DNA of 25,920 nucleotides from IMG/VR virus record IMGVR_UViG_3300033141_003292, positions 1-25,920 of that record; one strand, written 5' to 3'. Below are positions 1 through 20,351 of the stretch, piece after piece; position 1 is the first letter of the stretch, and every line of letters begins with the position of its first letter. The position numbers and the translations under genes were made by a program. Source of the stretch: a virus. A model generated the notes under the pieces. The model was not told the DNA's origin, searched no databases, and was given only the letters and a program-made list of their open reading frames with translations.

Positions 1-193
1 TGTGAGTCGGCTCCTGTATGCGTCCACCGAATATAGTTACATCGTTCTTCTCTACAGTCATACCCGCGAAGGCGGTGATGTCACGCACACGTGGTAGTGT
101 GGCGTTCCATGTGCCTATCTTTGACACCGCTTCACTTATGGTGAGGCTTTTATACTCCCATTCCTCGCCGTCTATGTTTAACTTGGTTGCCAC
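1..193 (-). CDS. Distal tail / baseplate-type protein, N-terminal fragment
   Basis: Only the first 64 codons are inside the window; the gene runs off the left edge. It starts with GTG, whose G is shared with the TAG stop of the tape measure gene (overlap of 1 nt), so it is translationally coupled to it. The fragment (VATKLNIDGEEWEYKSL at its N-terminus) has the short beta-strand pattern of proteins that open the distal tail or baseplate section. Position directly after the tape measure is the main argument for a distal tail role; no fold-specific motif is visible in so short a piece. Confidence 0.6.
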   Translation of the reverse strand, partial: MATKLNIDGEEWEYKSLTISEAVSKIGTWNATLPRVRDITAFAGMTVEKNDVTIFGGRIQEPTH

Positions 194-2571
194 TACTTTA
201 GCCCTCTTCTTTCAAGCTCTAGTTTAAGGTTCTCCGCTAGGAAATCCGCGTTATCACTGTATATGTTCTCTATGGTGACGTTAACGTTATTCGTGAACCC
301 TCTCTCCATAGCGCTATTGGTTGGCTGAATAGGTGTAGTGTTTTTCCATCCTCTTGTATCTGGTTTAGCTTGATTCATCCAAGGGTCTTCTGATAAAGGC
401 TCAACCCATTGTGGCGGTGTCCACTGTGGAGGTGTCCACGCTTCTTCACGTGTCTCCGTTTTCTCTTTCTCAGTCTTCTTTAACTCGTCAAGCTTCTTCT
501 GTAACGTTATTCTTTCCTTTATTTTATCGTTATATAACCCAAGTTTCTCAGCTGCACGTATATACGCGTCCTCTATGGCTTCCACTGCGTTCCTGTACTT
601 TGTCTCCGCTACCTCAGCCTCAGTGGTTAAGGTATTCGCTTCACGTTTTGCTTCATTATAGTTCTCTTGGGCGTCGTTGACATCATCCTCCGCGTCCCGC
701 TGGGAGACGTAGATGTTGTTCAGGTTCTCGTTAAGGCTGGTTAACTGATCGACAAGCGCCTGTGCTTCACTCATTTTCCTGTTTTTCTCATCCTGTTTAT
801 CGGTTGCTTTCTCTAGTTTGAGTGCAAGCTCAGCGTTTCTTATCTCTAGCTCCCTTTCCTTGTCAGCGAGTTCTCTTAGCCGCGCATCTTCCTCCTGTGT
901 GGCTTGCCCAGCGTCTTCAAGTTCTCTACGTTGCTCCCTGTATGCTTCAAGTTGTTTCCTCTGGGTGAAGGTGAGGAATCCCTGTGTCTGCGCTAGTTTC
1001 TCTAGTTTGCTTATCTCGTTGTCAACGCCAGCTATCTGCGCCTGTGCAGCGTCTTCTCTGTCCTGTATGGCGTCACGTATCTTCATCTGTTCTATGCTCT
1101 GCTTGCTTAGGGTGCGGTTGTTCTTCTCCATCGCCTGTGTTAGCTTATTCACCCTCGCCGTAGCGCGGCTGTACGCTGTCTGCGTCATGGATAGGTTCTT
1201 CTCTAGCTCCGTTAACGCCTCCGCTGTTCCCTCCACGTGGTAGGTTGTATCCTTTAACACCTCATCGTAGCTACGTGCTTCGCCTGTGACGTATTTAATC
1301 AGGTTCACGAGGTTCCCAGCTACCCGCGTATACTCAGCGTCTACCTTACGTTGATTCTCCTTAGCCTCATTCAGCCGCTCTAACGCATCGGCTTCCTTCT
1401 CCTGAGCCTTAGCTAGCTTATTCTCAGCGTCCATCCACGCGTCAAGTAAATCAGGTGTCTTCTCCGTCGCTGAGTTATACTGCTCTAAGGCGCGTGTATA
1501 GCCTGACGCCGCCTGCGTGGATTCTATCATGGCGTCGGCGAACGCTTGCTCTGCCTCTATTAGTTCCTCTGTGGTCTGGGTGTCGAACCGTTTGTTGGCT
1601 GTGAGGTCTTTTATTAGTTTAATGTATCCACGTATCGCGTATGGTAGTGTCGCTATCAGCAGCCCAGCTACGCCGCCCATGACGTACGCGGATACGCCGA
1701 ATACGTCTCCTAGATGTATTAAGTCGAATATAAGACCCTTCACAGCGAACCGTGTTACCCCGATTGCTGCACCTAGGTCGCTGAACGCCGCCATTGTTAC
1801 GCCTGTGATTACAGGTGAAAGTGTGCTAAGTATTGGCGCTAGTGTCCCTAGTGGCGTTATGAGTTCCCCTATGCTTACGGTGACGTTTCTTATCGTTGCG
1901 TCCCATTGTGAGAGTGATTTATCCGTGTCGCCGATGTTGTCTCCTAGTGTCGCAACTTTCTCGTTAAGACGCTCTATGGCGACTGTGTGGAACGCTGTTT
2001 GACGCTCTGACGCTGTTAACTCGTCAACGGTTTTACCTATGCGTTTCGCGTATATCTCGTTGGCGTCCCCTGCGCGGATGATTATCCCTAGGTCATCTAG
2101 TAGTCTGTAACTCTGTCGCCCTAACCCTAGTGTCAGTTTCTCAACCGCTGTCGTGGCGTCTAACCCCATGGCTTTCCCTAGTTTAATAGCGCCGACGAAT
2201 AATTCATCCAAGTCCTCCGTCGGTAAGCCGAGTGCTAGTGCTCTGTTTGCCTGTGTAAGCAAATCTACTCGGCTAATCATACCCATGGTGGCTTCCTCAA
2301 GCGCCTCTATGCTTACGGTTGACTCGTCTCCCACCCCCGCGAGTGCGTTGAAGCTGCGTTCAAGGGTTTCCATGCTTGCACCTAACGTGATGGCTTCACG
2401 GGTGGTGTCGCTTATAGCGTAGAATAAGTCACGCGCCATCACCCCGGCTGCGATGCTTGCGCTACGTTTGAAGATGTTCATGGTGCTGGTGGCTTTGCTG
2501 AGCCCTTTCTCCATTTCACCGGTTCGTACTATTACGTTGACCGCTATTTCGCCAGCTGTTACTGTGCTCAT
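193..2571 (-). CDS. Tail tape measure protein
   Basis: A 792-aa protein that should set tail length and occupy the tail lumen. The N-terminal ~260 residues are helical and Ala-rich; residues ~262-322 form a hydrophobic patch with one or two possible membrane segments (for example YVMGGVAGLLIATLPYAI), as usual for tape measures that insert into the host membrane. Residues ~330-740 are almost continuous Glu/Lys/Ala coiled coil, followed by a Pro/Trp-rich stretch (WTPPQWTPPQWVEP). The C-terminus, with NVNVTIENIYSDNADFLAEN, is typical of the family. The ATG at 2571 has AAGGAG nine bases upstream. It is the longest gene of the tail block and follows the chaperones, as expected. A soluble coiled-coil virion protein is the only alternative, and is unlikely. 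Confidence 0.93.
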   Translation of the reverse strand: MSTVTAGEIAVNVIVRTGEMEKGLSKATSTMNIFKRSASIAAGVMARDLFYAISDTTREAITLGASMETLERSFNALAGVGDESTVSIEALEEATMGMISRVDLLTQANRALALGLPTEDLDELFVGAIKLGKAMGLDATTAVEKLTLGLGRQSYRLLDDLGIIIRAGDANEIYAKRIGKTVDELTASERQTAFHTVAIERLNEKVATLGDNIGDTDKSLSQWDATIRNVTVSIGELITPLGTLAPILSTLSPVITGVTMAAFSDLGAAIGVTRFAVKGLIFDLIHLGDVFGVSAYVMGGVAGLLIATLPYAIRGYIKLIKDLTANKRFDTQTTEELIEAEQAFADAMIESTQAASGYTRALEQYNSATEKTPDLLDAWMDAENKLAKAQEKEADALERLNEAKENQRKVDAEYTRVAGNLVNLIKYVTGEARSYDEVLKDTTYHVEGTAEALTELEKNLSMTQTAYSRATARVNKLTQAMEKNNRTLSKQSIEQMKIRDAIQDREDAAQAQIAGVDNEISKLEKLAQTQGFLTFTQRKQLEAYREQRRELEDAGQATQEEDARLRELADKERELEIRNAELALKLEKATDKQDEKNRKMSEAQALVDQLTSLNENLNNIYVSQRDAEDDVNDAQENYNEAKREANTLTTEAEVAETKYRNAVEAIEDAYIRAAEKLGLYNDKIKERITLQKKLDELKKTEKEKTETREEAWTPPQWTPPQWVEPLSEDPWMNQAKPDTRGWKNTTPIQPTNSAMERGFTNNVNVTIENIYSDNADFLAENLKLELERRGLK

Positions 2572-2889
2572 TTAAGTGCTCTCCTTACGCCTTTTCTTAT
2601 CTGGTTTCTGAAATATTTTATCTGTGACATTAATGATACCTCCATGACGCCTTCTGGCGCCTGCCCGCTGTTTTGTCGGGGGTTCACGTCTTATGCTCTT
2701 CTGATAGGAGTGTGCTACAATGTAGTCTGGTATTCCAGTGGTTTTAGGGGTTCCTATTGGGGCGCGTTTCTTCGCTTCTCTTACAACCTGATCCTGTGTC
2801 AATACGGCTGCTTTTTCTGTTTCTAGTATTATTTGATTTATTATCTTGGTTAACTTGTTGTTAACCTGTTCAACGCCTGTGACGCTCAG
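2572..2889 (-). CDS. HK97 gp10-like tail completion protein (probable CTG start)
   Basis: The reading frame is open back to 2889, although the first common start codon is a TTG at 2802. Upstream codons read as normal protein (VNNKLTKIINQIILETEKAA), and a perfect AAGGAGG lies 8 nt before a CTG at 2889, so a 105-aa product from CTG is proposed. The central part, ...VVREAKKRAPIGTPKTTG...YQKSIRRE, matches the 'AK..aP..TG.Lr.SI' pattern of gp10-like neck and tail completion proteins; the C-terminus is Arg/Lys-rich. It sits between the chaperones and the tape measure, whose ATG immediately follows its stop. If CTG is not used, the product is a 76-aa form that lacks the N-terminal helix. Confidence 0.6.
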   Translation of the reverse strand: MSVTGVEQVNNKLTKIINQIILETEKAAVLTQDQVVREAKKRAPIGTPKTTGIPDYIVAHSYQKSIRREPPTKQRAGARRRHGGIINVTDKIFQKPDKKRRKEST

Positions 2890-2893
2890 AAAC

Positions 2894-3516
2894 TTAACCT
2901 CCTTGTATCTCTATTTTACCGCTCCACAGCAACCCAGCTAGTAACATGTCAACCTGCTCTAACGTTAAACACGCTATCTCTTCAAGAGTGTACCCGTAGT
3001 GCTGCGCTATGAGGATGACTGTCTTTGCGTAACTATTGTTCTGTATCCATCGAGACTTTGTTTTAAGACTGGCATTAAAAAACGTTCCGACTCCTCGCGT
3101 CCATACTCTATCAGTATGGTGTCTATGAAGCTCGCTGGTAGGTTATACACTGTGTCTTTGCTCCATTTCTCGGGGTTCGCCCTGTTTAACAGTAGGTATA
3201 CTGCGTGTCGGTTACGGTTGTTGGTCTGTATTTCCTCGTCTTCGTGTTTTATTGACGCTATCTCTGTTCTATCTTTTATACGTAGCGGGCAATACTCAAC
3301 GTAGTATGGTTTACCGTTGTCATCCGTTATAGTTGACAGGATTAACCGCTTCTTCAGGTTAGCGTAGTTAATCATCTCGTAGGCGTCAGCTAAGTCACGT
3401 GACTCAACGTATTCCATGTATTCTCTTTTCTTAGCCTCTTCAACTGGCTTCATTAAACGGTTACGAGTCTCCTCGTTACGTTCATCTAGGCTTCTCTCTA
3501 CTTGCTGTTCTTCCAT
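2894..3516 (-). CDS. Tail assembly chaperone, -1 frameshift fusion (gpGT-like)
   Basis: This is the extended product predicted from a -1 slip at T TTT TTA (3082-3076): 147 codons in frame 0, then 60 codons in the -1 frame, ending at the TAA at 2894-2896, 207 aa in all. The -1 frame is fully open and clearly protein-like (SRWIQNNSYAKTVILIAQH, then LEEIACLTLEQVDMLLAG). Without the slip this segment has no start and no SD. The arrangement matches the gpG/gpGT pair of lambda-type phages: a short and a frameshifted chaperone just upstream of the tape measure, which it helps to polymerise tail tube around. A sequencing indel could mimic this, but the canonical slippery heptamer in the right phase argues against it. 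Confidence 0.75.
3007..3516 (-). CDS. Tail assembly chaperone, frame-0 product (gpG-like)
   Basis: The 169-aa product when no frameshift occurs. The first ~30 residues are charged and helical (MEEQQVERSLDERNEETRNR), followed by a mixed alpha/beta region; the last 22 residues (after the slip site) end in QRQSSS and look non-structural. The ATG at 3516 has AGGAG about 9 nt upstream, inside the end of the preceding gene (19-bp overlap). By position and by the embedded slippery site it is the short member of a gpG/gpGT-type chaperone pair. It shows no database-style motif by eye, so the assignment rests on gene order and frameshift architecture. Confidence 0.75.
   Translation of the reverse strand: MEEQQVERSLDERNEETRNRLMKPVEEAKKREYMEYVESRDLADAYEMINYANLKKRLILSTITDDNGKPYYVEYCPLRIKDRTEIASIKHEDEEIQTNNRNRHAVYLLLNRANPEKWSKDTVYNLPASFIDTILIEYGREESERFLMPVLKQSLDGYRTIVTQRQSSS
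3076..3082 (-). promoter_or_regulatory. -1 programmed frameshift site (TTTTTTA)
   Basis: On the sense strand the codons are CGT TTT TTA ATG, giving the X XXY YYZ heptamer T TTT TTA in the correct phase for tandem -1 slippage by tRNA-Phe and tRNA-Leu. Re-reading the last A gives AAT GCC AGT and 57 further sense codons. The frame-0 stop lies 67 bp downstream. I could not verify a stimulatory hairpin by eye. Confidence 0.75.
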
Positions 3517-3746
3517 TCTAAATACTCCTCGTATTCATCCTTCTTCACTACCCGTAGATGGTTGTTACTGATAGTGTTATATATTAAACGGAACTCCGCC
3601 CTGTCTCTTAGATAATTCTTTAAGCTAAGTAAATCAAGCCAAGTCCCTGAGAGGACAACCCCCATCGTCATCAAAATCTGAAGGTCTTCATCCTCTATCT
3701 TAAGCTCATCTATACTGTATCTCCTGTACTCCATGTCTTTACTCAA
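3498..3746 (-). CDS. Small tail-region protein of unknown function (TTG start)
   Basis: An 82-aa acidic protein (SKDMEYRRYSIDELKIEDEDLQ at its start, ending in YEEYLEWKNSK). The frame is open further up to 3833, but that would overlap the preceding gene by 74 bp; a TTG at 3746 with AAGGAG nine bases upstream starts 13 bp after the previous stop and is the better choice. It lies between a tail-terminator-like protein and the tail chaperones. The middle section (LMTMGVVLSGTWLDLLSLKNYLRD) is amphipathic. No family recognised; a small tail assembly factor is the simplest reading of its place. Confidence 0.65.
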   Translation of the reverse strand: MSKDMEYRRYSIDELKIEDEDLQILMTMGVVLSGTWLDLLSLKNYLRDRAEFRLIYNTISNNHLRVVKKDEYEEYLEWKNSK

Positions 3747-3759
3747 TTTTATTATCTCC

Positions 3760-4221
3760 TTATGTCTTATAGTTTGCCTGAACACGTATACTCCACCGTA
3801 GCATACGTGGTTGACGGTTTCTACCCCGCTCATTCAAAAGCATCCCCCTGTCAAGAGGTATGACGAGTCCAACGGGTGGAACAAAGTTTTTACGCTGGGT
3901 GTTAAGAATCCGTATAACCTCCTCCTTCATATTCCAGACGGTGAGTTCACCGTCTGGGCTGGGGTCTTCGCCTCTGTCTACACGGTACCAGCAATCCACT
4001 TGGTATATCTCGTTTGTGAGTGTATGTAGGCTTGCATCGTATCCTGCCCCGAACCATCTTATATTAGGGCTGTACATGTGGCTGACTGTAACCTGATGCT
4101 TTATCTCGTCTTTCTCATACCAGCCTGTGGTGAAGTATACGTCACCTAGGGCGGGGTTGAGTATGCTCCAGTTGTTCTCAAGCATGTCACGTATCTGTTT
4201 AGCCACTGTCTCAAGAACCAC
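3760..4221 (-). CDS. Neck / tail terminator-like protein
   Basis: A 153-aa protein, GTG start at 4221 with AGGATAG in the end of the preceding gene. The layout is an N-terminal helix (VLETVAKQIRDMLENNW), several beta strands (HQVTVSHMY, YQVDCWYRVDR), a helix (WNMKEEVIRILNTQRK) and a final strand (MLRWSIRVQANYK). This alpha-beta-alpha-beta order, with 'Y.V.cw.....W.m..EV.RIL' in the middle, is what tail terminator and neck stopper proteins of siphovirus-type tails look like. It lies directly after the head-tail connector, as such proteins do. Assignment is by pattern and place, not by a unique motif. Confidence 0.6.
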   Translation of the reverse strand: MVLETVAKQIRDMLENNWSILNPALGDVYFTTGWYEKDEIKHQVTVSHMYSPNIRWFGAGYDASLHTLTNEIYQVDCWYRVDRGEDPSPDGELTVWNMKEEVIRILNTQRKNFVPPVGLVIPLDRGMLLNERGRNRQPRMLRWSIRVQANYKT

Positions 4222-4223
4222 GT

Positions 4224-4898
4224 CTATCCTACCTCTATGCTGTATAGTCTATATTTGTCTAGTATGTCTTTCTCGTTCTTAGTTAACACACGGGGGCTTC
4301 TGAACAGTGAGGATAACCCGCCTACGCTTCCCTGCCCCGTTTCAAGGATTGGTGTGATGAGGTCTGGCATCATCTCGCTTCGTATCATCTCCCTGAGTGC
4401 GTTACTGCATAGCTGGGCGGTGACGTATTGTATGTCATGCGGGTATGTTCCGTATCCCCATGTTCCTATGATGTCAACGTTCTGTCTCCCAGAGTTGAAG
4501 GTGTTGTTATGGTACGCTACGTAGGTTTCGTAGACTTGGAAATCTGTCGCTGTCTGCGCTACGTCGTCTATCGTTACACCTGTTACCGCTATTAACGGTA
4601 GGGGGAGTAGCATGCTTGGGCGTGGGGTTCCTGTTGTGTCTGTTACCCTTTGGTTGCTGAACACTGTTAAGCCATGTGGGCTGATGTGTTCCACTTCTTT
4701 CCCTGAGCCATCCAGTCTTATCGTGCCACGGTTCTCGTAGAAGTTGTGTCCAACATAGTTGTCAACCATATCCTGTGCTTTAGGTATAAGTGTTCCCTGA
4801 ATCCATCCACGGTAATCAGCGTCTGAGTCAAAATGCACTTGCTTATAGTTAATCTGGCTGAACATTATCACGTCAAAGGTTCCACAGTACAGCGTCAC
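4224..4898 (-). CDS. Head-tail connector (gp6-like adaptor)
   Basis: A 224-aa protein. The start is GTG at 4898, four bases into the stop of the upstream dehydratase (GTGA overlap), with GAGGTGG eight bases upstream. A leading helix (YRGWIQGTLIPKAQDMVDNY) is followed by beta strands and by the segment VDIIGTWGYGTYPHDIQYVTAQLC, which carries the 'I.GtwGYg..P.di..A...L' signature of phage gp6-like connectors that form the ring below the portal. A C-terminal helical tail follows. It is the first structural gene after the glycan cassette, which therefore splits it from the capsid genes. Confident for the family, less so for the exact ring layer. Confidence 0.75.
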   Translation of the reverse strand: MTLYCGTFDVIMFSQINYKQVHFDSDADYRGWIQGTLIPKAQDMVDNYVGHNFYENRGTIRLDGSGKEVEHISPHGLTVFSNQRVTDTTGTPRPSMLLPLPLIAVTGVTIDDVAQTATDFQVYETYVAYHNNTFNSGRQNVDIIGTWGYGTYPHDIQYVTAQLCSNALREMIRSEMMPDLITPILETGQGSVGGLSSLFRSPRVLTKNEKDILDKYRLYSIEVG

Positions 4899-5842
4899 TT
4901 GTAACCACCTCTATTTTCATTCATCTTATTCATCTCTCTGAAATCCCATTTCCCGCCATTACCTTTAAACCACTCCACAGTCCTCTCCAAACCATCCCTG
5001 AAGCAGACTTTAGGCTCCCACCCAGTGTATTGACGCAGCTTAGACGCGTCACATATGAGCCTATCCACGTCAAACGGCCTCAACCTTTTTTCATCTATTT
5101 TAATCTTAACATCCTCACCGGGGCGCATTATCTCGCCAAGCATCTCAGCTATAGTTAATATGCTCCACGTTTCACCTGTGCCGCAGTTCACGACTTCGCC
5201 GTCTAACTCACTGCACTCCATCACATCAACTAAGGCACGAGCCCCATCAACCACGTAGGTGAAATCACGCTCAGAGTACACGTTACCGAGGCTTAACACA
5301 GGGCCCCTGCTTAGCTGCTCAATTATCTCGGGGATAACGTATCGCCAAGTCTCTTTTGGCCCAAAGTTGTTGAACATTCGTACGACTGTTACGTCTACTC
5401 TGTGTTCATGGTGGTATGTTCTGCATAATCCGTCTCCCGCGTATTTGGCGACTGCGTATGTGCTGTGTGGGTTTATTCTATGGGTTTCACTCATAGGTAG
5501 GTTTGGGTCTTCGGCTGTGCCGTAGACTTCGCTTGTTGAAGTGTATATTACTCGTGTCCCTGTTTTCTTCGCGGCGTTCAGTACGTTCTGTGTTCCGTTG
5601 GCGTTTGTCTCGAAGAACTCGTTTGGGTGACTGTAACCGAATGGGATGTATGGGCATGCGGCCATGTGCAGGCAGTAGTCAGCGTTTTCCATGTATGCTT
5701 CCACCATTCTAGGGTTTCTTATATCTTGTTCTATGTTGCTGTAGTTATCGAAAGGTATTACTGTGTATCCTCTACGTTTTAACTCATCTGATACGTGGCT
5801 CGCTATGAAGCCGTCGCTTCCCGTTAATAAAACTTTCTCCAT
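4895..5842 (-). CDS. NAD-dependent sugar dehydratase/epimerase, LegB-like SDR
   Basis: A 315-aa extended short-chain dehydrogenase/reductase. The nucleotide-binding turn TGSDGFIASH (residues 7-16) is the GxxGxxG motif with the last Gly replaced by Ala. Residues 101-110 read TSTSEVYGTA, and the catalytic YxxxK is Y129-K133 (STYAVAKYAGD). FGPKET near 175 and ERDFTYVVDGA near 210 are typical of NDP-sugar 4,6-dehydratases and epimerases. TSTSEVYGTA is the form I associate with LegB-type UDP-GlcNAc 4,6-dehydratases, which feed a DegT aminotransferase; the adjacent upstream gene is exactly that. It could instead be a 4-epimerase or a decarboxylase. Last gene of the glycan cassette; its stop overlaps the connector start. 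Confidence 0.85.
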   Translation of the reverse strand: MEKVLLTGSDGFIASHVSDELKRRGYTVIPFDNYSNIEQDIRNPRMVEAYMENADYCLHMAACPYIPFGYSHPNEFFETNANGTQNVLNAAKKTGTRVIYTSTSEVYGTAEDPNLPMSETHRINPHSTYAVAKYAGDGLCRTYHHEHRVDVTVVRMFNNFGPKETWRYVIPEIIEQLSRGPVLSLGNVYSERDFTYVVDGARALVDVMECSELDGEVVNCGTGETWSILTIAEMLGEIMRPGEDVKIKIDEKRLRPFDVDRLICDASKLRQYTGWEPKVCFRDGLERTVEWFKGNGGKWDFREMNKMNENRGGYK

Positions 5843-5870
5843 TTTTAGGTTCTCCTAACTTTCATCATAA

Positions 5871-6896
5871 CTAGGTTAGATATTCTTTAACTACCTCCGT
5901 CACGTATAATGCTTCATCAGGTGTTAACGTGTTATACATCGGGATGCATATGACGTGTCGGTACACGAAGTCCGCTCCAAGCATATGTTTCAACGGCTTC
6001 CATCCTAGACGATAGCCTACTCCTTTCCGCATCAAACACGTAGCCAGCTTCACTGGGTTCTTAACGAATATGGGGAACATCATGTTGGCGTGTTGCTTCA
6101 CATAGTCTGGGATAAGCTGAAACCCTACTACGCCGTCAAGCTCCTCGCGGTATAGCTTCGCGATACGTTCACGGTTACTTAGATAGGTTTTAAGCTTCTT
6201 TAACTGAACTCTCCCAACCGCGCTGCATATGTCAAGAGGTTTCATGTTTAACCCACGGGTGATGAATGCTCCTTTCTCATCTGGGTTTTCCCCGTGGCAA
6301 CGCACCGCCCTCAGTTTATACGCGTACTCTGGGTTATCTGTTGAGGCGCATCCTCCCTCTATCATTGTGACTACTTTAGCAGCATGGAAACTATAGCACA
6401 GAATCCTATCGCCGCTAACATCACCAGTATAGCGAGTAGTTGCGCCAAAAGACTCCGCCGCGTCCTCCACCACGAGACGTGTTTCTCCCCAGACTTGTTG
6501 GTTAATAGGTAACCCAGCGTAGTGTACTGGTATCTGTATCTCATATCTTTTACCACTGTCTTTAGGTTTCATTAAAACAGTTGACGGGTTTACGTCACCG
6601 TATTTTACGCGGCGTAGCCCTGACGCGTACACAGCGTTTTCAGTCGCCTTAAACGTGTAGCTTGGTATACGCACCGTGTATCCTTCATGATATGCCCCTA
6701 TTGCGAGAAGGGATGCTAGTATAGCGTTTGTTCCGCTGTTGAACACTATGTTATGCTTCTTCCCTGTAACCGCCGCTAACTCAGTCTCCAAGCGCTGGGT
6801 TTCTTCACCCATCGTCATCCACCCGCTGTCTACTACGCGTTTAGCTGCCTTCTTCTCCTGTTCCCCGAAGTCTGGGGCTGCCCACGGTATATTCAT
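5871..6896 (-). CDS. DegT/DnrJ/EryC1-type PLP sugar aminotransferase
   Basis: A 341-aa protein, close to the usual ~370-400 aa. VEDAAESFGA (Asp145, which binds the pyridine nitrogen of PLP) and SFHAAKVVTMIEGG (Lys174, the Schiff-base lysine) are in the canonical order. SGTNAI near residue 54 is the phosphate-binding loop. Such enzymes transfer an amino group from glutamate to a 4- or 3-keto sugar nucleotide. The keto substrate is likely made by the LegB-like dehydratase encoded 28 bp downstream, and the amine could be acetylated by the NeuD-like transferase of the same cassette. All catalytic residues are present. The precise sugar cannot be read from sequence. Confidence 0.92.
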   Translation of the reverse strand: MNIPWAAPDFGEQEKKAAKRVVDSGWMTMGEETQRLETELAAVTGKKHNIVFNSGTNAILASLLAIGAYHEGYTVRIPSYTFKATENAVYASGLRRVKYGDVNPSTVLMKPKDSGKRYEIQIPVHYAGLPINQQVWGETRLVVEDAAESFGATTRYTGDVSGDRILCYSFHAAKVVTMIEGGCASTDNPEYAYKLRAVRCHGENPDEKGAFITRGLNMKPLDICSAVGRVQLKKLKTYLSNRERIAKLYREELDGVVGFQLIPDYVKQHANMMFPIFVKNPVKLATCLMRKGVGYRLGWKPLKHMLGADFVYRHVICIPMYNTLTPDEALYVTEVVKEYLT

Positions 6897-7142
6897 CTAA
6901 CCCACCAGTGGGTTATCCTCTTCTGGGATAATGTTAACCTTCTCCATAACTGCGTTGAACATTTTCATCGCCTGTGCGTCGTCCCATGCGGATACTTTCA
7001 CGTTTAGGTTTCCGGCTTTTAGCTCTAACTCTATGTTGGTGAAGTTTCTGTTTACTGTGCTGCTCGTCATCTCGGTTGGTTTTACCGTGATTTTTCCGGG
7101 TTCGGTGTATCCTCCGAGTATTCTTATGAGTGTTTTCCTCAT
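6897..7142 (-). CDS. Small conserved-looking protein of unknown function
   Basis: An 81-aa protein with ATG at 7142 preceded by TTGGAG at good spacing; its stop directly abuts the aminotransferase start. The N-terminus is basic (MRKTLIRILGGYTEPGKITV), the centre alternates like beta strands (FTNIELELKAGNLNVKVSAW), and a helix (DDAQAMKMFNAVMEKVN) leads into an acidic tail. It has no catalytic motif. It sits within the glycan cassette between two tiny proteins and the aminotransferase, so it may be a virion component carried along rather than a sugar enzyme. Not recognised. Confidence 0.65.
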   Translation of the reverse strand: MRKTLIRILGGYTEPGKITVKPTEMTSSTVNRNFTNIELELKAGNLNVKVSAWDDAQAMKMFNAVMEKVNIIPEEDNPLVG

Positions 7143-7164
7143 CTACGTTTTCTCCAATCTATCT

Positions 7165-7335
7165 TCACTGTTCTTCTGTTAACTGGAATAGGCATCTATG
7201 TCCGCCGTTCTTCGGGCATCTGCCTTCTCCTTTTACGCAGAAGCATATTAGCCCCACGTTTCGGTTCACGTTAGCTGATAACATCACCGGCACTTCTTCT
7301 CCGTCGTGTTTACATCGGCGTTTCCCGTGTTTCAC
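7165..7335 (-). CDS. 56-aa Cys-rich mini-protein
   Basis: The frame opens with GTG at 7335 (sense GTGAAACACGGG), with GTGGAG upstream, inside the end of the 48-aa gene in another frame. The product carries CKHDGEEVPVML, then ICFC, then CPKNGGHRC, so five to six cysteines plus histidines are spaced like a small metal-binding or disulfide-bonded module. It ends at TGA 7165-7167, 22 bp before the next gene. Function unknown; one of several Cys-rich mini-proteins in this genome. Confidence 0.5.
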   Translation of the reverse strand: MKHGKRRCKHDGEEVPVMLSANVNRNVGLICFCVKGEGRCPKNGGHRCLFQLTEEQ

Positions 7336-7456
7336 TCTTTTTCTCCACTCGCTCTATCTTGAATCCATGTAAACCTGTGTCGTCTCCACGGTACTCCGCT
7401 AACGTTACTTTACGTCCATCCTTATACGCTATAAGTCTGTAAATATGTTTACTCAT
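7310..7456 (-). CDS. 48-aa mini-protein of unknown function
   Basis: The ATG at 7456 overlaps the stop of the upstream glycosyltransferase (ATGA), a coupling used throughout this block. The product begins [19 protein letters not shown] and ends in a charged tail (ERVEKKSETRETPM). The beta-hairpin-like start with 'YRLIAYKDGRKVTLAEY' looks like a genuine folded mini-protein. No family recognised. Confidence 0.55.
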   Translation of the reverse strand: MSKHIYRLIAYKDGRKVTLAEYRGDDTGLHGFKIERVEKKSETRETPM

Positions 7457-8229
7457 CTTTCTATTAGCACTCTCCAATCATGAAGGCATTCAAGCTCAGG
7501 GTACGCCCAAACCTTGAAGCCTTGTTCACGCGCCGCCATACACCAACCCGGCGTAGCCTTATCCCCCGTGTACCATACTTTTTCATATACTTCACGCTTC
7601 GCGAGAACAGGGTTAGCCCCAACGCATATCATCGGTAATAGGTGTTTCTCTTTATCCGCTTTTATCGTGTCATCGTTAAGCATACGGCGTTTATAATACA
7701 TATGTATATTCGGGTTAAACTGAAGCCCGGGGTGTGGTCCGTATAGGTGTCTGTATCCCCATACGTCGTAGAACGTGTGTGTGTTTCTGTACGGGTTTTT
7801 ATAGTTGTTCTCTGGGTCTATGTATATGTATGGCGCAACTATGTCTACGTCTAAGTCTATGAGTGTTTTCAGTGTTTCCTGTGGTATCTTCACAACGTCT
7901 GCGTCGCATTGGAACACATAGTCTACTGGTTCTACTCCTTTGAAATGTGTCTTCACGTAGTGTCTCCATAGGTTGCTGCTGTAGAACATGCGTTCCCTGT
8001 GGCGGAACTTAGCGTCATCCATGTCATGTTGTATGAAGAACGTGTTCTTCTTAGGCTTCATCCAGTCAAGTATGATTCCGCGTGTGTTATCTTTGCTTCC
8101 ACCCTCTACGCACGCGTATCTCAGCCTATCTTTAGGGTAGTCAAGATTATCTATCTGCTCTAGGAAACGTGGGAGCGTATTCTCGGCGTCACGCGCGACG
8201 AATCCTATGAGAACCAGTGGCTCTACCAA
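7453..8229 (-). CDS. Glycosyltransferase, Anp1/GT-A-like
   Basis: A 258-aa GT-A fold protein. The N-terminus ([20 protein letters not shown]) is the nucleotide-binding strand and helix; [11 protein letters not shown] follows. [10 protein letters not shown] near residue 105 carries the DxD metal/sugar-nucleotide motif, and [10 protein letters not shown] follows it. The sequence resembles the Anp1-type mannosyltransferases more than ordinary GT2. It has no membrane segment, so it would act in the cytoplasm on a soluble or lipid-linked acceptor. It overlaps the acetyltransferase gene by 7 bp and the next mini-protein by 4 bp. Its middle (PIIAPYVYI-like) matches the second GT-A gene of the cassette, so the two may be paralogues. 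Confidence 0.85.
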
Positions 8230-8870
8230 TGCGGGAGCTTCCTGAACTTTATGTTACTGCGTGCAGGGTTTCCCGCTACAACCATGTTCGGTGGGACATC
8301 CCGTGTCACAACCGCGCCTGTTCCGACAACAGCGCCGTCCCCTATCTTAACTTTGGGTTTAACGGATGCCCCTTGCCCGATGAACACGCCTTCACCGAGT
8401 GTAACCCCCCCGCTTATTGCTGCTTGCCCACATATCGTTGAGTAGTCGCCTATAACTGTGTTGTGGCTAACGTTAGCGAGTGGTCCGATGCTTACGTGGT
8501 TTCCTATGTTGCACTGTGATCCTATGCTGCTTTGTTCTCTTATTATGAAGTCTACGCCTATGTGTTGTGGGTTTGTTATCACTGTTGTTTGATGTGTTAG
8601 TGTTCCCCATGTGTATTGGACGTTATGTCTAGTTGCGTCTTCTGTGAAGCGTTTTATCAGTGTTCTTTTGTCACGTGTGTCTCCTACGGCGGAGTATACG
8701 GTTAACGGTTGATCTATTACGATTATGGTGTCTTTTACTGGTTTGCCTCGTTTTGTCTCTGATCTGGTATAGGGTTCTTCGTATAGTTGTATTATGCTAC
8801 TCCATAGGTTAAATAAGTCGCATAGGTGTTGTGTCTTCACCCCAGCCCCTAACACGATTACTGGGTTCAT
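8223..8870 (-). CDS. NeuD/PglD-like sugar O/N-acyltransferase (left-handed beta helix)
   Basis: A 215-aa protein with two parts. Residues 1-~85 (start [20 protein letters not shown]) look like the small Rossmann-type domain of PglD/NeuD enzymes. Residues ~95-205 are hexapeptide repeats ([LIV]Gxxxx: [58 protein letters not shown]), forming a left-handed beta helix. VSH in '[12 protein letters not shown]' is the catalytic-His region of this family, and the C-terminus has the usual VAGNPAR. It should move an acetyl group from acetyl-CoA to an amino or hydroxyl sugar. With the aminotransferase and dehydratase it would complete a 4-acetamido-4,6-dideoxy sugar route. Confidence 0.88.
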
Positions 8871-8871
8871 C

Positions 8872-9687
8872 TCACATCACGTATTTTTGAATAAACTCTA
8901 AGGCGAAGTCGTTGTTCTCAACTATTTCACCTGAGTCAGTTATCAGTGGGGGTGGTTTATATGTGGGGTTATAGAATCTGCTATTCGGGTTTGTCTCAAT
9001 CGGGTTGTTTCCTCCACCGATTCTCTCCAAGTCCACGTGATAGATTTCTATATTCGGATCAACCCATACTCCGTACCCGCTTTCACGGCAATCGTTACAG
9101 AACAGTAGATGTGGGTAAGGATCACGATACGGGTGCTCTGTGAAAGGCTCTCGTTTAACTAGGAACACGCATCCCACGCTATCTATCTGCGCTAGTTTAT
9201 GCCCATGCATAGGTGGGTCGAAGGCATGATACCTGTACCCTTTGTATCTATACACCATTGTGTCATAGAACCGTTTCCCCGGCTCATGGTATTTAATGTA
9301 TACATATGGTGCTATTATTGGTTTATCGTGTTTAAGAAGCTTCTTAACGAGGTTCTTAGGTGCATCAACTATGTCGCTGTCCCATAGTAAGGCATGTGTG
9401 TCGTCACCTGTTTTTACGAGTTGCTGGAAATCGTGGTATAGGAACGCTATCTCTGCGCTGCTGTTCACCGTGTTTTTTGGTTTAGGTTCACGTATTAGCT
9501 CTACTCTATGTTTTGACTGTTTTATCCACTTAATCAATATGTTTAACGTGTCGTCCACGCTGTGTCCGTAGCTTATGATAACCCTGTTTATCTCTTTGCC
9601 GAAGCTTTCTATTATTTCAAGGTTTTTAGGCAGCCAAGGTTCACCGTTCTTAACAGGCATGCATAACGCTACCTTTGATTTTGTCAT
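8872..9687 (-). CDS. Glycosyltransferase, GT-A fold
   Basis: The ATG at 9687 ([19 protein letters not shown]) is preceded by GAGGAGAGGAGG and overlaps the stop of the upstream gene (ATGA); a longer version starting at 9759 would overlap it by 76 bp and lacks these signals. The 271-aa product has the GT-A start, a [11 protein letters not shown] motif (DxD) near residue 110, [15 protein letters not shown], and a C-terminal H in YHVDLERIG. It resembles the gene at 7453-8229 in architecture and key motifs, which suggests two related transferases acting in sequence. Cytoplasmic; acceptor unknown. Confidence 0.82.
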
Positions 9688-11596
9688 AGATTTATCCTCC
9701 TCTCCTCCACGCTCTTTGGGTGCATATCCTCTCTTAGTCTCTCTATCAGATTCACCCACAGTGGCTGCACGACTTTCTCCCAGTCATAGTTTAACGTAAA
9801 CCTCCGCGCCTTATCCCCTATCCTCTTAAGCTCAGCTGGGTCACTGTTATACGCTTTCTCTAGGTACTCCGCTATCTCCCACTCGTTAGGTATAGCCTGT
9901 TCGCTGAGAAGCATGGTTGTATCCGTTGTTATCGGGGATAGTTGGCACCCCGCATGCTTGTGCTTCTATTAACGGGATTCCGAATCCCTCGTTCCGCGCT
10001 GTCCCTAGGTAAACGTCGAACGCATTATACATCTTCGCCATGTTTCCCTCACTCATACCACAGTACATTTGGAACGGGTGGGTGACGCGTATATATTCCC
10101 CTAAACCAGTCATCTGCGCCATGTCTCTTAACGGGAAGGCGTTAGGGAAATCTGGGTTTGTGTGGAAGTATATTCGCGTGTCTTTCTTCGCGTCAGGGTT
10201 CTGTTGCAGGAATAGGCTTATGGCTTTTAAGTCTCTGTCATAGTTTTTCCGCTTCGTGTCCTTGTTGGCGGCGTTTTTCCCTATTAGGAATATGTTGTCA
10301 TCCCATGGTTTCCCTTCTTTCCCCGTTATCGGTGTGCTTACCCGTCTTAGTGTCTACTCCATGCGGTATGTATGTTGATTCTATGCCCTGTCGCCTTAAC
10401 TGGTTTCTGCCGAACATGCTCATTGATATACAGTGATACGCTAGACGGGCTTGCTCCAGCGTAGGAATAGGTATCGGATCATGATCCACCGGGAAGTAAG
10501 GACACCAATATGGATGTATTTTCGTGAACCAGTCACGTTGCCCCTTATATAAACCGCTGCTTCCTATCCATATATCGAATAACGTGATAAGTATATCAGG
10601 TTTCCAGTTACGGCAGATCATCTCCGCTGCGTCTATTCCATACGGGTCGAATTTCTTAGGGAACACCTTCATCCCGTTGAAGCTAAGCGCAGCCCCTTCA
10701 AGACCGTAGCTCGCTAGACACGCGATGTCGTAGTACTCGTGAAGCTTGTATACCACGTGCTTCGTTCCAAGGCCATAGCCCGTCGAAGACCAGTGTGCGT
10801 TGCTCCACCAGAGTATTTTGAAGTCTTTGCTGTCTGGTTTCACTGGGTACTCTACTGTGTTCTCTACGGTTGGCGGCGGTTTGGGTGTTTTGAAGTATAT
10901 TGTGACTGCGTGGTCGTGTTTATCCTCCCATGGGCTGTCTTCTCTTATCTTGGGGTATAGGTATTCCTGTATGTTTACTGGCTCCACGCCTCTTATCAGG
11001 AACTCGTTTATCCACCACTCTTTACTGTATATGCTTACATGTGTCTTATCTACGCCGTGGCTCTGATCTGGTTCACTGTCATCTGGGCGTATCGGCACAT
11101 CGAGGACTATGTTTCTCCCAACCCGCACAGCTTCACTTATAGCTGTGTATAGGTCTGGGACTCGTATATGTTCGAGCACGTCTAGTGCTACTACTAGGTC
11201 GAACTCTTTGTCACCCCACATGCTTAGGTCGCATACGTCTCCACAGTATAGGCTGTCTTTCACTTTCTCAGCGCCGTGTGTGATAGCCCATTCACTGATG
11301 TCTACTCCGACTGCTTGTACCCCTTTTTCATGGAAGGCTTGCACCATGTATCCACGGGCGCATCCTAGAACAATCGCCTTTTTCACGTTGGGTATTACTG
11401 ATAGAAAAACGTCAACCACTTTTCTGTCTCGGGGAAGATACACTTCCTCTATGTATGCGGTTGCCTCTGATTCGACTCCGTTATCTGTTTTCCCGTAGCT
11501 TGATCCTTCGCCTCTCAGAAAATAGCCTTCACCGTATGTTGATGATGGCATGCTTCCAGTGAAGGTTTTATCACTGCTTCGCTTTACTTTACTCAA
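9684..11596 (-). pseudogene. Methyltransferase-GT4 glycosyltransferase fusion, interrupted by two frameshifts
   Basis: Starts with TTG at 11596 behind the cassette promoter. Residues ~70-145 are a class I SAM methyltransferase (motif I AIVLGCARGYMVQAF, VGVDIS, FDLVVALDVLEH). From ~255 a GT-B domain begins (FKILWWSNAHWSSTGYG), reaching HGVDTK near 415. There the frame breaks: removing one base from the CCC at 10341-10343 continues it as TVSTPITGKEGKPW. The second segment holds the GT4 EX7E motif EGFGIPLIE and ACGVPTI; removing one base from the GGGG at 9934-9937 restores the third segment (ITTDTTMLLSEQAIPNEWE) to the stop at 9684. The repaired product is 636 aa. Both breaks need the same +1 repair in short homopolymers, so decay, assembly error or recoding are all possible. 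No start or SD serves the downstream parts as separate genes. Confidence 0.8.
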
Positions 11597-11747: not shown

Positions 11748-12896
11748 TTAAGCCTCTACGCTTTGTATCCAGTAGATGCCGTCAGGGTGCAGGCATACTC
11801 CGCCGTAGCGGATGTCCGCTATAACCCAGCGCTTCTGTAGGCGTGGGCTGTACTCTGTCTCAATGGTTACGCCGTGTTTAATGGCTCCCGCCAAGGCTCC
11901 CTTAGCTAGTAGGAGAGTCCTGTAGGTTCCGCCACCGACGTGCAGAGTCCCCTTCGGGGTTACGCTGATCTCTAGTCCGTATGCTTGTTCAAGTCTTCCG
12001 CCGCTGATAACGTCTCGTGCGCCGAAACGGTTAGCATAGGTGAAGTTCGTGTCCTGCATTAGCGACGTCCAGACTACTGGGTGCATGATGATTTTAGCCG
12101 GGGTGTATGTACCAGCCATCATCGAGCCCATAGCCTCTAGGATGAGGCTTCCAGTCATGGCGCCTGCGCTTGACAGTGTTCCGCCGTTAGTGCAGCTGAG
12201 AGCTACGTTAAAGAAGTAGTTGTCAACGCATACCGCTAGGCATGCTCCGAGTCCCTCGTTCAACGCGTCTACTAGTCCATACTGCACGTCCTCGATGTCC
12301 TCACGGCATATATAATATGCACATGTGTCATGCTCAAGGGTGATGTATGGACACTCTAATGTAGCCGCTGCGGTTGTAGGTTCTTCACATGCGAGGTCTG
12401 TGCATACTGCTGGTCCTACCCTGCATATATGCACTTTGTCTCCGGGTCTTCCCTGTATGTCGTCATACCAGTTCATGAACCATGCTCCGAGGAACACGCT
12501 TCCGGGGTAGACGTGGTCTCTTTCAACTTTGTCTGCCCATATCTCTGGGATGCAGCAGTCTGGGTTTAGTGATCCGATTGCCTCTGTTAACGAGTACTCT
12601 GTTTCCTTTAACGCTTCATTCATTGACGTGATGGCTATGTCTTCGACGTCTTTGCCGTCGAGTCTGTACTTGTAGTCATCTATGCCGATTTTTCTGTGCA
12701 CGGTGTGAAGTAGTTTGTCTACTCCTATCGTGTAGTCGAATGGCTGTGGTTTAGGCTGGTTTATAGCCTCGTTTATGCTGTCAAGTGTTTCCCTTGGCAC
12801 TAGTTTTTCTTCTAGGCTTCGGAAATGCTCCGCCATGTTGTCACGCATCTCTTTCTTGAAGTCGCTTAGGTCTAGTTCTACGATTGTTTCGCTCAT
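11748..12896 (-). CDS. Major capsid protein, HK97 fold
   Basis: A 382-aa protein. The N-terminal ~70 residues are charged helix (SETIVELDLSDFKKEMRDNM), which may be a scaffold-like delta region. The rest has the typical MCP order: an E-loop/P-domain stretch, 'MTGSLILEAMGSMMAGTYTP', 'IIMHPVVWTSLMQD', 'SGGRLEQAYGLEISVTPKG' and a C-terminal 'ADIRYGGVCLHPDGIYWI'. It follows the protease-scaffold and is preceded by a very strong SD (GGAGGAAAATAAACT-ATG). The sequence holds 12 cysteines, all after about residue 105, which is unusual for this fold and could give disulfides or metal sites that stabilise the shell. No protease cleavage site could be identified by eye. Confidence 0.88.
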   Translation of the reverse strand: MSETIVELDLSDFKKEMRDNMAEHFRSLEEKLVPRETLDSINEAINQPKPQPFDYTIGVDKLLHTVHRKIGIDDYKYRLDGKDVEDIAITSMNEALKETEYSLTEAIGSLNPDCCIPEIWADKVERDHVYPGSVFLGAWFMNWYDDIQGRPGDKVHICRVGPAVCTDLACEEPTTAAATLECPYITLEHDTCAYYICREDIEDVQYGLVDALNEGLGACLAVCVDNYFFNVALSCTNGGTLSSAGAMTGSLILEAMGSMMAGTYTPAKIIMHPVVWTSLMQDTNFTYANRFGARDVISGGRLEQAYGLEISVTPKGTLHVGGGTYRTLLLAKGALAGAIKHGVTIETEYSPRLQKRWVIADIRYGGVCLHPDGIYWIQSVEA

Positions 12897-19031: not shown

Positions 19032-20351
19032 TTATCTAGGTCTCCTACCTGTTTCGGCTGATGGTCCCCCTGTTATTTTTCCGCTGAATACTCCCCATGT
19101 GGCTAAGCCGAGGCTTGTCACGCAGTCGTCGTGGATGCCTGTTGGGGCGTTGTAACGTATTCTCCCTGAGGGTAGTATATCGTATTCGAAGGCTTCAAGT
19201 TCGTCTATTAATGGTTTTAGCTGCGGTACGGGGGTTATTTCCTCGCCTAGTCGTGTGGCTGGTATGCCTATTTGCCCTTGGTCGAGTGCTATGTTAAGTA
19301 TGTTCACCATGTTGAATTTACTCTGGTTTGTGAACTTGTAGTCACGTATTAGAAGCTGTCTTCTTACAAGGTGATCGTAGCTTGACGCGCCTATGCCTGT
19401 TGCGTCTGTTACCAGTACGCCGGGGTATGCTTTAGTGAAGTTGTAGATACGGGTTTCTATGTCTTCCCAGTTAAGGTTGTTGAATCTGTCGAAGCCACGT
19501 ATGTTTCCACTTTGATTCATGGCGGTTAGCACGTTCCAGTCCTGTGTTTTCGCTACGTCGCATCCGATTACGTAGAACTCGTCTGGGTCTGCGGGTCCTA
19601 GCTGTATGTCTGGGTTTAGGCATTGGTATATGTTTCTGAATACTTGTCCTTCTCCTTTAAGGAAGTGGGCGTATATTTCCTGTCTCTTTGTGAGGTAGTC
19701 CATGCCTTTCGCGATGTCGTCTATGCTGCTTTTCTTCAGGTAGCCGCCTCGTTCTATCGTGTTCTCGTAGCTGCTGAACTGCCAGCTTTTATAGTTAGCC
19801 CAGTTCACGGGGTCTTGTCCACGTAGACACATCTGGTAGAACCAGCCACGGCCTTTCGGCGTGCCTATCGCCAGTAGCCAGCCGTCTCTGTCGATTAGGC
19901 TCGGCGCTAGCTCCTCTGTGTATCTTTCACCGGGGAAGCTTCCGGCTTCATCTATTACGAGTCCATCTAAGCCGTGTCCTCTTAGGCTGTCCTCTGTGTT
20001 TCCGCTGTGGAAGTATATTTCTGTTCCGTCTTGTAGCTGTAGATACCATATTACTTTGTTTCTTTCACGGACATCGTATATGAAGTCCGTGGGGGTCATC
20101 TCTTTTACTGTCTCTGTGGCTGGGGCGAGTTCCTTGTTTATCGACGCTACCCACCAGTATAGTCTGGTATCAGGGTTTATGGCGTCCATTATTATCTTAG
20201 CCCAGCCGAGACGGGTTTTCCCGAATCGTCTGCCTGCGCTTACTAGCTGGAACCTGTGGGTGTCTTGTATTATCTCCCATTGTTTCGGGTGGGGTTTGAA
20301 GACGAACTCATCGTCGTCAATGTTCCTCCACTTTATCTTTCGCGTGCTCAA
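19032..20351 (-). CDS. terL: Terminase large subunit
   Basis: A 439-aa packaging motor. The ATPase domain has Walker A (SAGRRFGKTRLGW, residues ~38-50) and Walker B (LDGLVIDEAGS) with the coupling 'AIGTPKGRGWFY'. The nuclease domain has the three acidic clusters expected of the RNase H fold: VIGCDVAKTQDW, GVLVTDATGIG and HDDCVTSLGLA. All catalytic residues are present. The start is TTG at 20351 (SD GAGGAG), 35 bp inside the small terminase gene. The C-terminal end is short and ends in GRRPR. TerL would drive DNA into the prohead through the portal encoded downstream. Confidence 0.97.
   Translation of the reverse strand: MSTRKIKWRNIDDDEFVFKPHPKQWEIIQDTHRFQLVSAGRRFGKTRLGWAKIIMDAINPDTRLYWWVASINKELAPATETVKEMTPTDFIYDVRERNKVIWYLQLQDGTEIYFHSGNTEDSLRGHGLDGLVIDEAGSFPGERYTEELAPSLIDRDGWLLAIGTPKGRGWFYQMCLRGQDPVNWANYKSWQFSSYENTIERGGYLKKSSIDDIAKGMDYLTKRQEIYAHFLKGEGQVFRNIYQCLNPDIQLGPADPDEFYVIGCDVAKTQDWNVLTAMNQSGNIRGFDRFNNLNWEDIETRIYNFTKAYPGVLVTDATGIGASSYDHLVRRQLLIRDYKFTNQSKFNMVNILNIALDQGQIGIPATRLGEEITPVPQLKPLIDELEAFEYDILPSGRIRYNAPTGIHDDCVTSLGLATWGVFSGKITGGPSAETGRRPR

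Follow-up and report, generated by a model that had tools for sequence, protein, structure and literature searches.

The window analysed here is the whole of a 25,920-base stretch of viral DNA (IMG/VR virus record IMGVR_UViG_3300033141_003292), and the element in question is a pair of overlapping reading frames near its tape measure gene. These frames very probably encode a frameshifted pair of tail assembly chaperones of the gpG/gpGT type; slippage itself, its efficiency and the chaperone function are inferred. All tail-module coordinates refer to the minus strand, and the features at the junction are the following.

3007..3516, minus strand: predicted gpG-like tail assembly chaperone, an open reading frame (ORF) in the 0 frame, 169 amino acids, ATG start at 3516; predicted fold resembles HK97 2ob9
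3076..3082, minus strand: slippery heptamer T TTT TTA, in phase; sequence, with TTTTTTA or TTTTTTG in four divergent relatives
2894..3082, minus strand: T extension in the -1 frame, 60 codons past the heptamer and then TAA (2896-2894); T peptides homologous among relatives
2894-3516, minus strand: predicted fusion gpGT, 207 amino acids; from the sequence
3526..3531, minus strand: Shine-Dalgarno-like GAGGAG of the gpG gene; from the sequence

The heptamer, CG[T TTT TTA], stands in phase at 3082-3076 (R-F-L), exactly where an earlier sequence-only reading had placed it, 66 nucleotides (nt) ahead of the gpG 0-frame stop. Window ORFs of 110 amino acids or more comprise 6535 codons, and among these TTTTTTR stands in phase once, at this site. 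Its codons are all minority choices: a T closing the codon before, TTT as the Phe codon and TTA or TTG as the Leu codon. The only start codons in the window T frame are an ATG at codon 45 and a TTG at codon 50 of 62, so that T, which had been described as lacking its own start, cannot be a separate gene.

The wider gene order comprises the head-tail adaptor, tail ORFs, gpG-T, one small ORF and the tape measure gene. The locus had been described as the gene before the tape measure; it does lie near that gene, but not immediately before it, as an HK97-gp10-like ORF stands between them. Neighbouring and marker genes are listed below.

3498..3833, minus strand: small ORF directly upstream of gpG, conserved in 9/9 viruses compared
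about 2572..2890, minus strand: ORF separating T from the tape measure gene, assigned from its resemblance and position as HK97-gp10-like tail-completion
193..2571, minus strand: tape measure protein, 792 amino acids (PHROG 3779 tail length tape measure, E 3e-11)
4224..4898, minus strand: head-tail adaptor (PHROG 442, E 3e-14)
11748..12896, minus strand: major capsid protein, which served to find relatives (PHROG 267)
19032..20351, minus strand: terminase large subunit (Pfam Terminase_6N, PHROG 2)

Conservation of the -1 junction

A scan with the major capsid protein identified divergent relatives, and a head-tail adaptor scan added three with a full tail module; further viral scans gave no new lineage members. 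An alignment designated A7 was too variable to serve as a search query, and one terminase alignment was left unused, as unrelated proteins were mixed in (rows L095, L099 and L103).

The heptamer occurs at the same place in four divergent relatives, as TTTTTTA in G002, G003 and L116 and as TTTTTTG in G007, with gpG identities to the window of 31-45%, and the five -1 viruses derive from different samples. When both frames were aligned, heptamer and T frame proved conserved throughout this group: the heptamer is present in every one of the five -1 viruses, none retains the T frame without it, and none of the relatives compared has G and T frames joined by an indel. With the encoded amino acids taken as given, the heptamer would arise with probability 0.012 in the window; for the five viruses the probabilities multiply to 2.7e-10, or to about 3e-8 without L116 (gpG 65% identical to that of G003); these products assume independent viruses and, the viruses being related, serve as a guide rather than as strict p-values.

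The -1 frame, which the sequence-only reading had called protein-like over its 60 codons, bears the marks of a translated sequence. T peptide similarity measured against shuffles reaches z 34 for the window and G007 and z 16 for the window with either G003 or G002, and it is significant for most pairs of the -1 group, the weakest being G002-L116 (z 1.6). Translations of the remaining frames of this DNA score far below these values, and past the 0-frame stop it is the third codon positions of the T frame that are most variable. As judged from these alignments, the T peptides are homologous and are evolving as protein. Start codons in the T frames of relatives are mostly late and their positions are not conserved. 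In L116, a 0-frame stop, TAA, follows the heptamer directly, while its T frame is intact (44 of about 63 residues matching G003); because the 0-frame product of L116 ends at the heptamer, its T homologue is reachable only by shifting. The gpG/gpGT-type layout proposed earlier is thereby supported by an in-phase heptamer, by an open -1 frame without a start of its own, by the conservation of both in divergent relatives, and by the tape measure gene just downstream.

Under this interpretation, most ribosomes would read 3516-3007 and produce gpG of 169 amino acids, while a minority, with tRNAs on UUU and UUA, would slip back one base at U_UUU_UUA and continue in the -1 frame to 2894, yielding gpGT of 207 amino acids. 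In phage lambda, G and GT cover the tape measure protein and bring in tail tube subunits. By analogy, G and GT, present in a fixed ratio, would do the same for the tape measure protein of the present virus, with the T domain recruiting the subunits.

An AlphaFold2 model of gpG built from five sequences (mean predicted local distance difference test score 77) is consistent with this role. Its top three structural matches are the HK97 chaperone 2ob9 (Z 5.8, root-mean-square deviation 4.8 over 100 residues), YqbN 3klu (Z 5.4) and 3fgx (Z 5.2), all somewhat above unrelated rows, which match mainly the long helix. The predicted resemblance to the fold of the HK97 tail assembly chaperone is support, not proof. 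Relatives of gpG or T were not found in annotated phage records.

Several results weigh against the proposed frameshift or its setting. The stimulatory structure that had been suggested downstream of the window heptamer did not appear: no stable RNA structure follows it, and the next 91 nt fold worse than 200 of 200 shuffles (z +2.4). An upstream Shine-Dalgarno-like stimulator is not notable in the window, G003 or L116. The structural match of gpG is modest (Z under 8), a Foldseek search with the model gave no match below E 0.001, and neither gpG nor T matched a named Pfam or PHROG chaperone family. Finally, two scans of genome contigs for proviruses or host-like genes turned up neither a host genome nor a provirus. 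Among the relatives, the downstream region is moderately structured only in L116 (z -2.0), and Shine-Dalgarno-like upstream pairing stands out in G007 and G002 (1% and 4% of background, respectively). A downstream hairpin common to these viruses was not found, and Rfam returned nothing over threshold.

The +1 relatives and exchange of the chaperone module

The frameshift arrangement is present in all nine viruses despite sequence divergence, five with the -1 layout and four (G006, G008, L115 and L117) with the T frame at +1, behind UUU CGC near the end of G. The +1 junctions read AAG TTT CGC CCA AAG TAA in G006, TCC TTT CGC AAG AAG TAA in G008, TCC TTT CGC AAG GAG TAA in L115 and TCC TTT CGC TGA in L117. 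UUU CGC has been proposed as a +1 motif in HF1-like haloviruses and, as UCC_UUU_CGU, in influenza A virus (PMC7230728 and its references).

Some T domains are significantly similar across the two groups (G002-G006, z 9.4; G007-L115, z 6.0), although many cross-pairs are not. Profile comparison of -1 gpG with +1 gpG gave a partial match only, at 80% probability and confined to the N-terminal part, and both models consist of a long helix, a beta hairpin and helices. The +1 gpG model has 3fgx (Z 6.8) and 2ob9 (Z 6.0) as its top matches.

In the gpG tree, the -1 viruses are split from the +1 viruses with full support. Neither the head-tail adaptor tree nor that of the small gene directly upstream of gpG shows this split; both place L115 (+1) with G003 and L116 (-1). 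The small gene, whose identity falls to 20-27% in L117, is in L115 67% identical to that of G003 (-1), whereas the gpG of L115 shares 70% identity with its counterpart in G008 (+1). Because the gpG tree conflicts with the other two over L115, the simplest reading is a recombinational exchange of the G-T module, with the crossover lying between the small gene and gpG. On balance, we favour, with some reserve, a single archaeal tailed-virus lineage with interchangeable chaperone modules, -1 at U_UUU_UUR or +1 at UUU_CGC, swapped by recombination just upstream of gpG. That -1 and +1 modules coexist, and have apparently been exchanged, within one lineage is the less expected part of these results. 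If modules have been swapped between otherwise close relatives, the ribosomes of their hosts must support both directions, and the swap suggests that having two products matters more than the direction of the shift.

Two homing-endonuclease-like ORFs, recognized by eye, flank the small gene in L115 (7169-7930 and 8218-8916), near the inferred exchange point.

Host and competing explanations

The virus had been taken for an archaeal one from its expression signals, and an archaeal host is indeed likely, although the case comes mostly from relatives and promoter-like boxes. Relative G006 encodes a PCNA that scores over Pfam cut-offs, and among control genomes PCNA was found only in the four archaea. 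In the intergenic DNA of the lineage, the TATA-like boxes TTTATATA and TATATA are enriched, whereas the bacterial boxes TTGACA (-35) and TATAAT (-10) are not. The best annotated relative of the terminase large subunit is that of Halorubrum virus Hardycor1 (32% identity), a haloarchaeal virus, and the motif of the +1 group is that of HF1-like haloviruses (PMC7230728). Set against these observations, a genuine frameshift in a virus of bacteria, from which nothing about archaea would follow, is unlikely, even though the similarity of the tape measure protein extends to bacterial phages and most matches of the major capsid protein in annotated records are Microbacterium phages (23-25% identity). 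Relative G006 also carries a TnpB-like protein (OrfB_IS605 or Cas12f-like; L098, 17471-18658) and a D5_N/DUF5906 primase-helicase-like protein.

Slippage by RNA polymerase on the six T's, instead of by the ribosome, is very improbable as the source of the fusion. A run of six is short for transcriptional slippage; moreover, relatives hold the exact X XXY YYZ phase, end in A or G and never extend the run, while related viruses use UUU CGC in the opposite direction. What speaks for it is the presence of the run and the fact that recoding by transcriptional slippage is known as an alternative (PMC5009743).

That T is produced on its own, from internal or coupled initiation and not as part of a fusion, is scarcely credible given start codons as late as 45 and 50 of 62 in the window and without conserved position in relatives, and it would leave the conservation of the heptamer unexplained. 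Coupled initiation is common in phage operons, but no result of the analysis supports it here. Equally implausible, and refuted by the recurrence of heptamer and layout among relatives, is a single gene broken by sequencing error or recent mutation, or a chance overlap of the -1 ORF: elsewhere the window and a near-identical contig do differ in indels, one of them a deletion that shifts the frame of the next gene, but that contig (IMGVR_UViG_3300033150_000997, L002) has the same junction, the two-frame layout and heptamer recur in five viruses from different samples with gpG as little as 31% identical, and no relative has joined frames.

Known systems and neighbouring genes

The proposed ribosomal -1 shift at the gpG-T junction recalls lambda gpG/gpGT and the conserved frameshifted chaperones of long-tailed phages (cited in PMC7911831 and PMC5009743), in which two overlapping frames likewise lie close to the tape measure gene. 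Shared with lambda are a heptamer near the end of G, a -1 T frame without its own start and a small, mostly helical gpG. The heptamers differ, being U_UUU_UUA in the window and G_GGA_AAG in lambda; there is no detectable sequence relation, and in the window one more gene intervenes before the tape measure gene is reached from T.

The sequence-only reading had considered recoding little documented in archaeal viruses. This holds in that archaeal frameshifting rests on one proven cellular gene, the Sulfolobus alpha-fucosidase gene, and several predictions from haloarchaeal viruses (PMC8211752); yet those predictions already include tail chaperones (PMC5009743, PMC8211752, PMC7911831, PMC7230728). 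A -1 shift in G-T is predicted for HVTV-1 and HCTV-1, -2 and -5, and a +1 shift for HSTV-2 (PMC5009743, PMC8211752). The -1 set shares with the window a predicted -1 G-T shift in archaeal tailed viruses, but its members are haloarchaeal siphoviruses, and the window lineage offers no pointer to a halophilic host. Hardycor1 has a predicted -1 heptamer, G GGA AAT (PMC7911831), which was confirmed to be in phase in the present analysis (L128). Besides the terminase relationship, its T has a similar GY..E.I..LT motif, with a T score of only z 3.9; it differs in its heptamer, in a T that runs straight into the tape measure gene, and in that no gpG relation was found in annotated phage records. HF1-like haloviruses, with a +1 shift at TTT-CGC (PMC7230728), have UUU CGC at the end of G in common with the four +1 relatives; they are, however, myoviruses of haloarchaea, and the window itself uses -1.

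To these predictions the present lineage, a new one, adds a U_UUU_UUR heptamer that is conserved among its -1 members, together with the apparent exchange of -1 and +1 modules. An earlier report of U_UUU_UUR in archaeal viruses was not found in the literature consulted, coverage of which is incomplete. A lineage beyond the known haloviruses that conserves this heptamer broadens the comparative evidence, with a short site and no evident downstream structure in the window. The slip would occur on tRNA-Phe, and wye-type modification of archaeal tRNA-Phe has been discussed as relevant to U-rich slippage (PMC5009743).

Other observations concern the genes around the junction. The HK97-gp10-like ORF has no ATG, GTG or TTG near its 5' end (window about 2885-2905), and a GGAGG lies 8 nt ahead of an in-frame CTG, which is a probable start. 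Compared with the near-identical contig (L002/L003), the window lacks about 97 nt at 2664-2674 within this gene, which changes the frame; the deletion may be either a natural variant or an assembly error. More indels relative to contig 3300033150_000997 lie at window 9938-10345 (compared with L004), in a glycosyltransferase/methyltransferase stretch where the ORF listing shows a fragmented gene series. The interval between capsid and neck genes (window 4895-11596) appears by eye to hold sugar-related cargo, with epimerase-like, DegT-like aminotransferase, glycosyltransferase-like and acyltransferase-like ORFs, and glycosyltransferase-like ORFs occupy the corresponding place in at least G003 and L009. 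A tRNA-Pro (TGG) near the end of G003 (L097, 9448-9525) is possibly virus-carried or the mark of an integration site. Relative G001 encodes a TGT/DpdA-like protein (L105, 6858-7826), suggesting 7-deazaguanine modification of its DNA.
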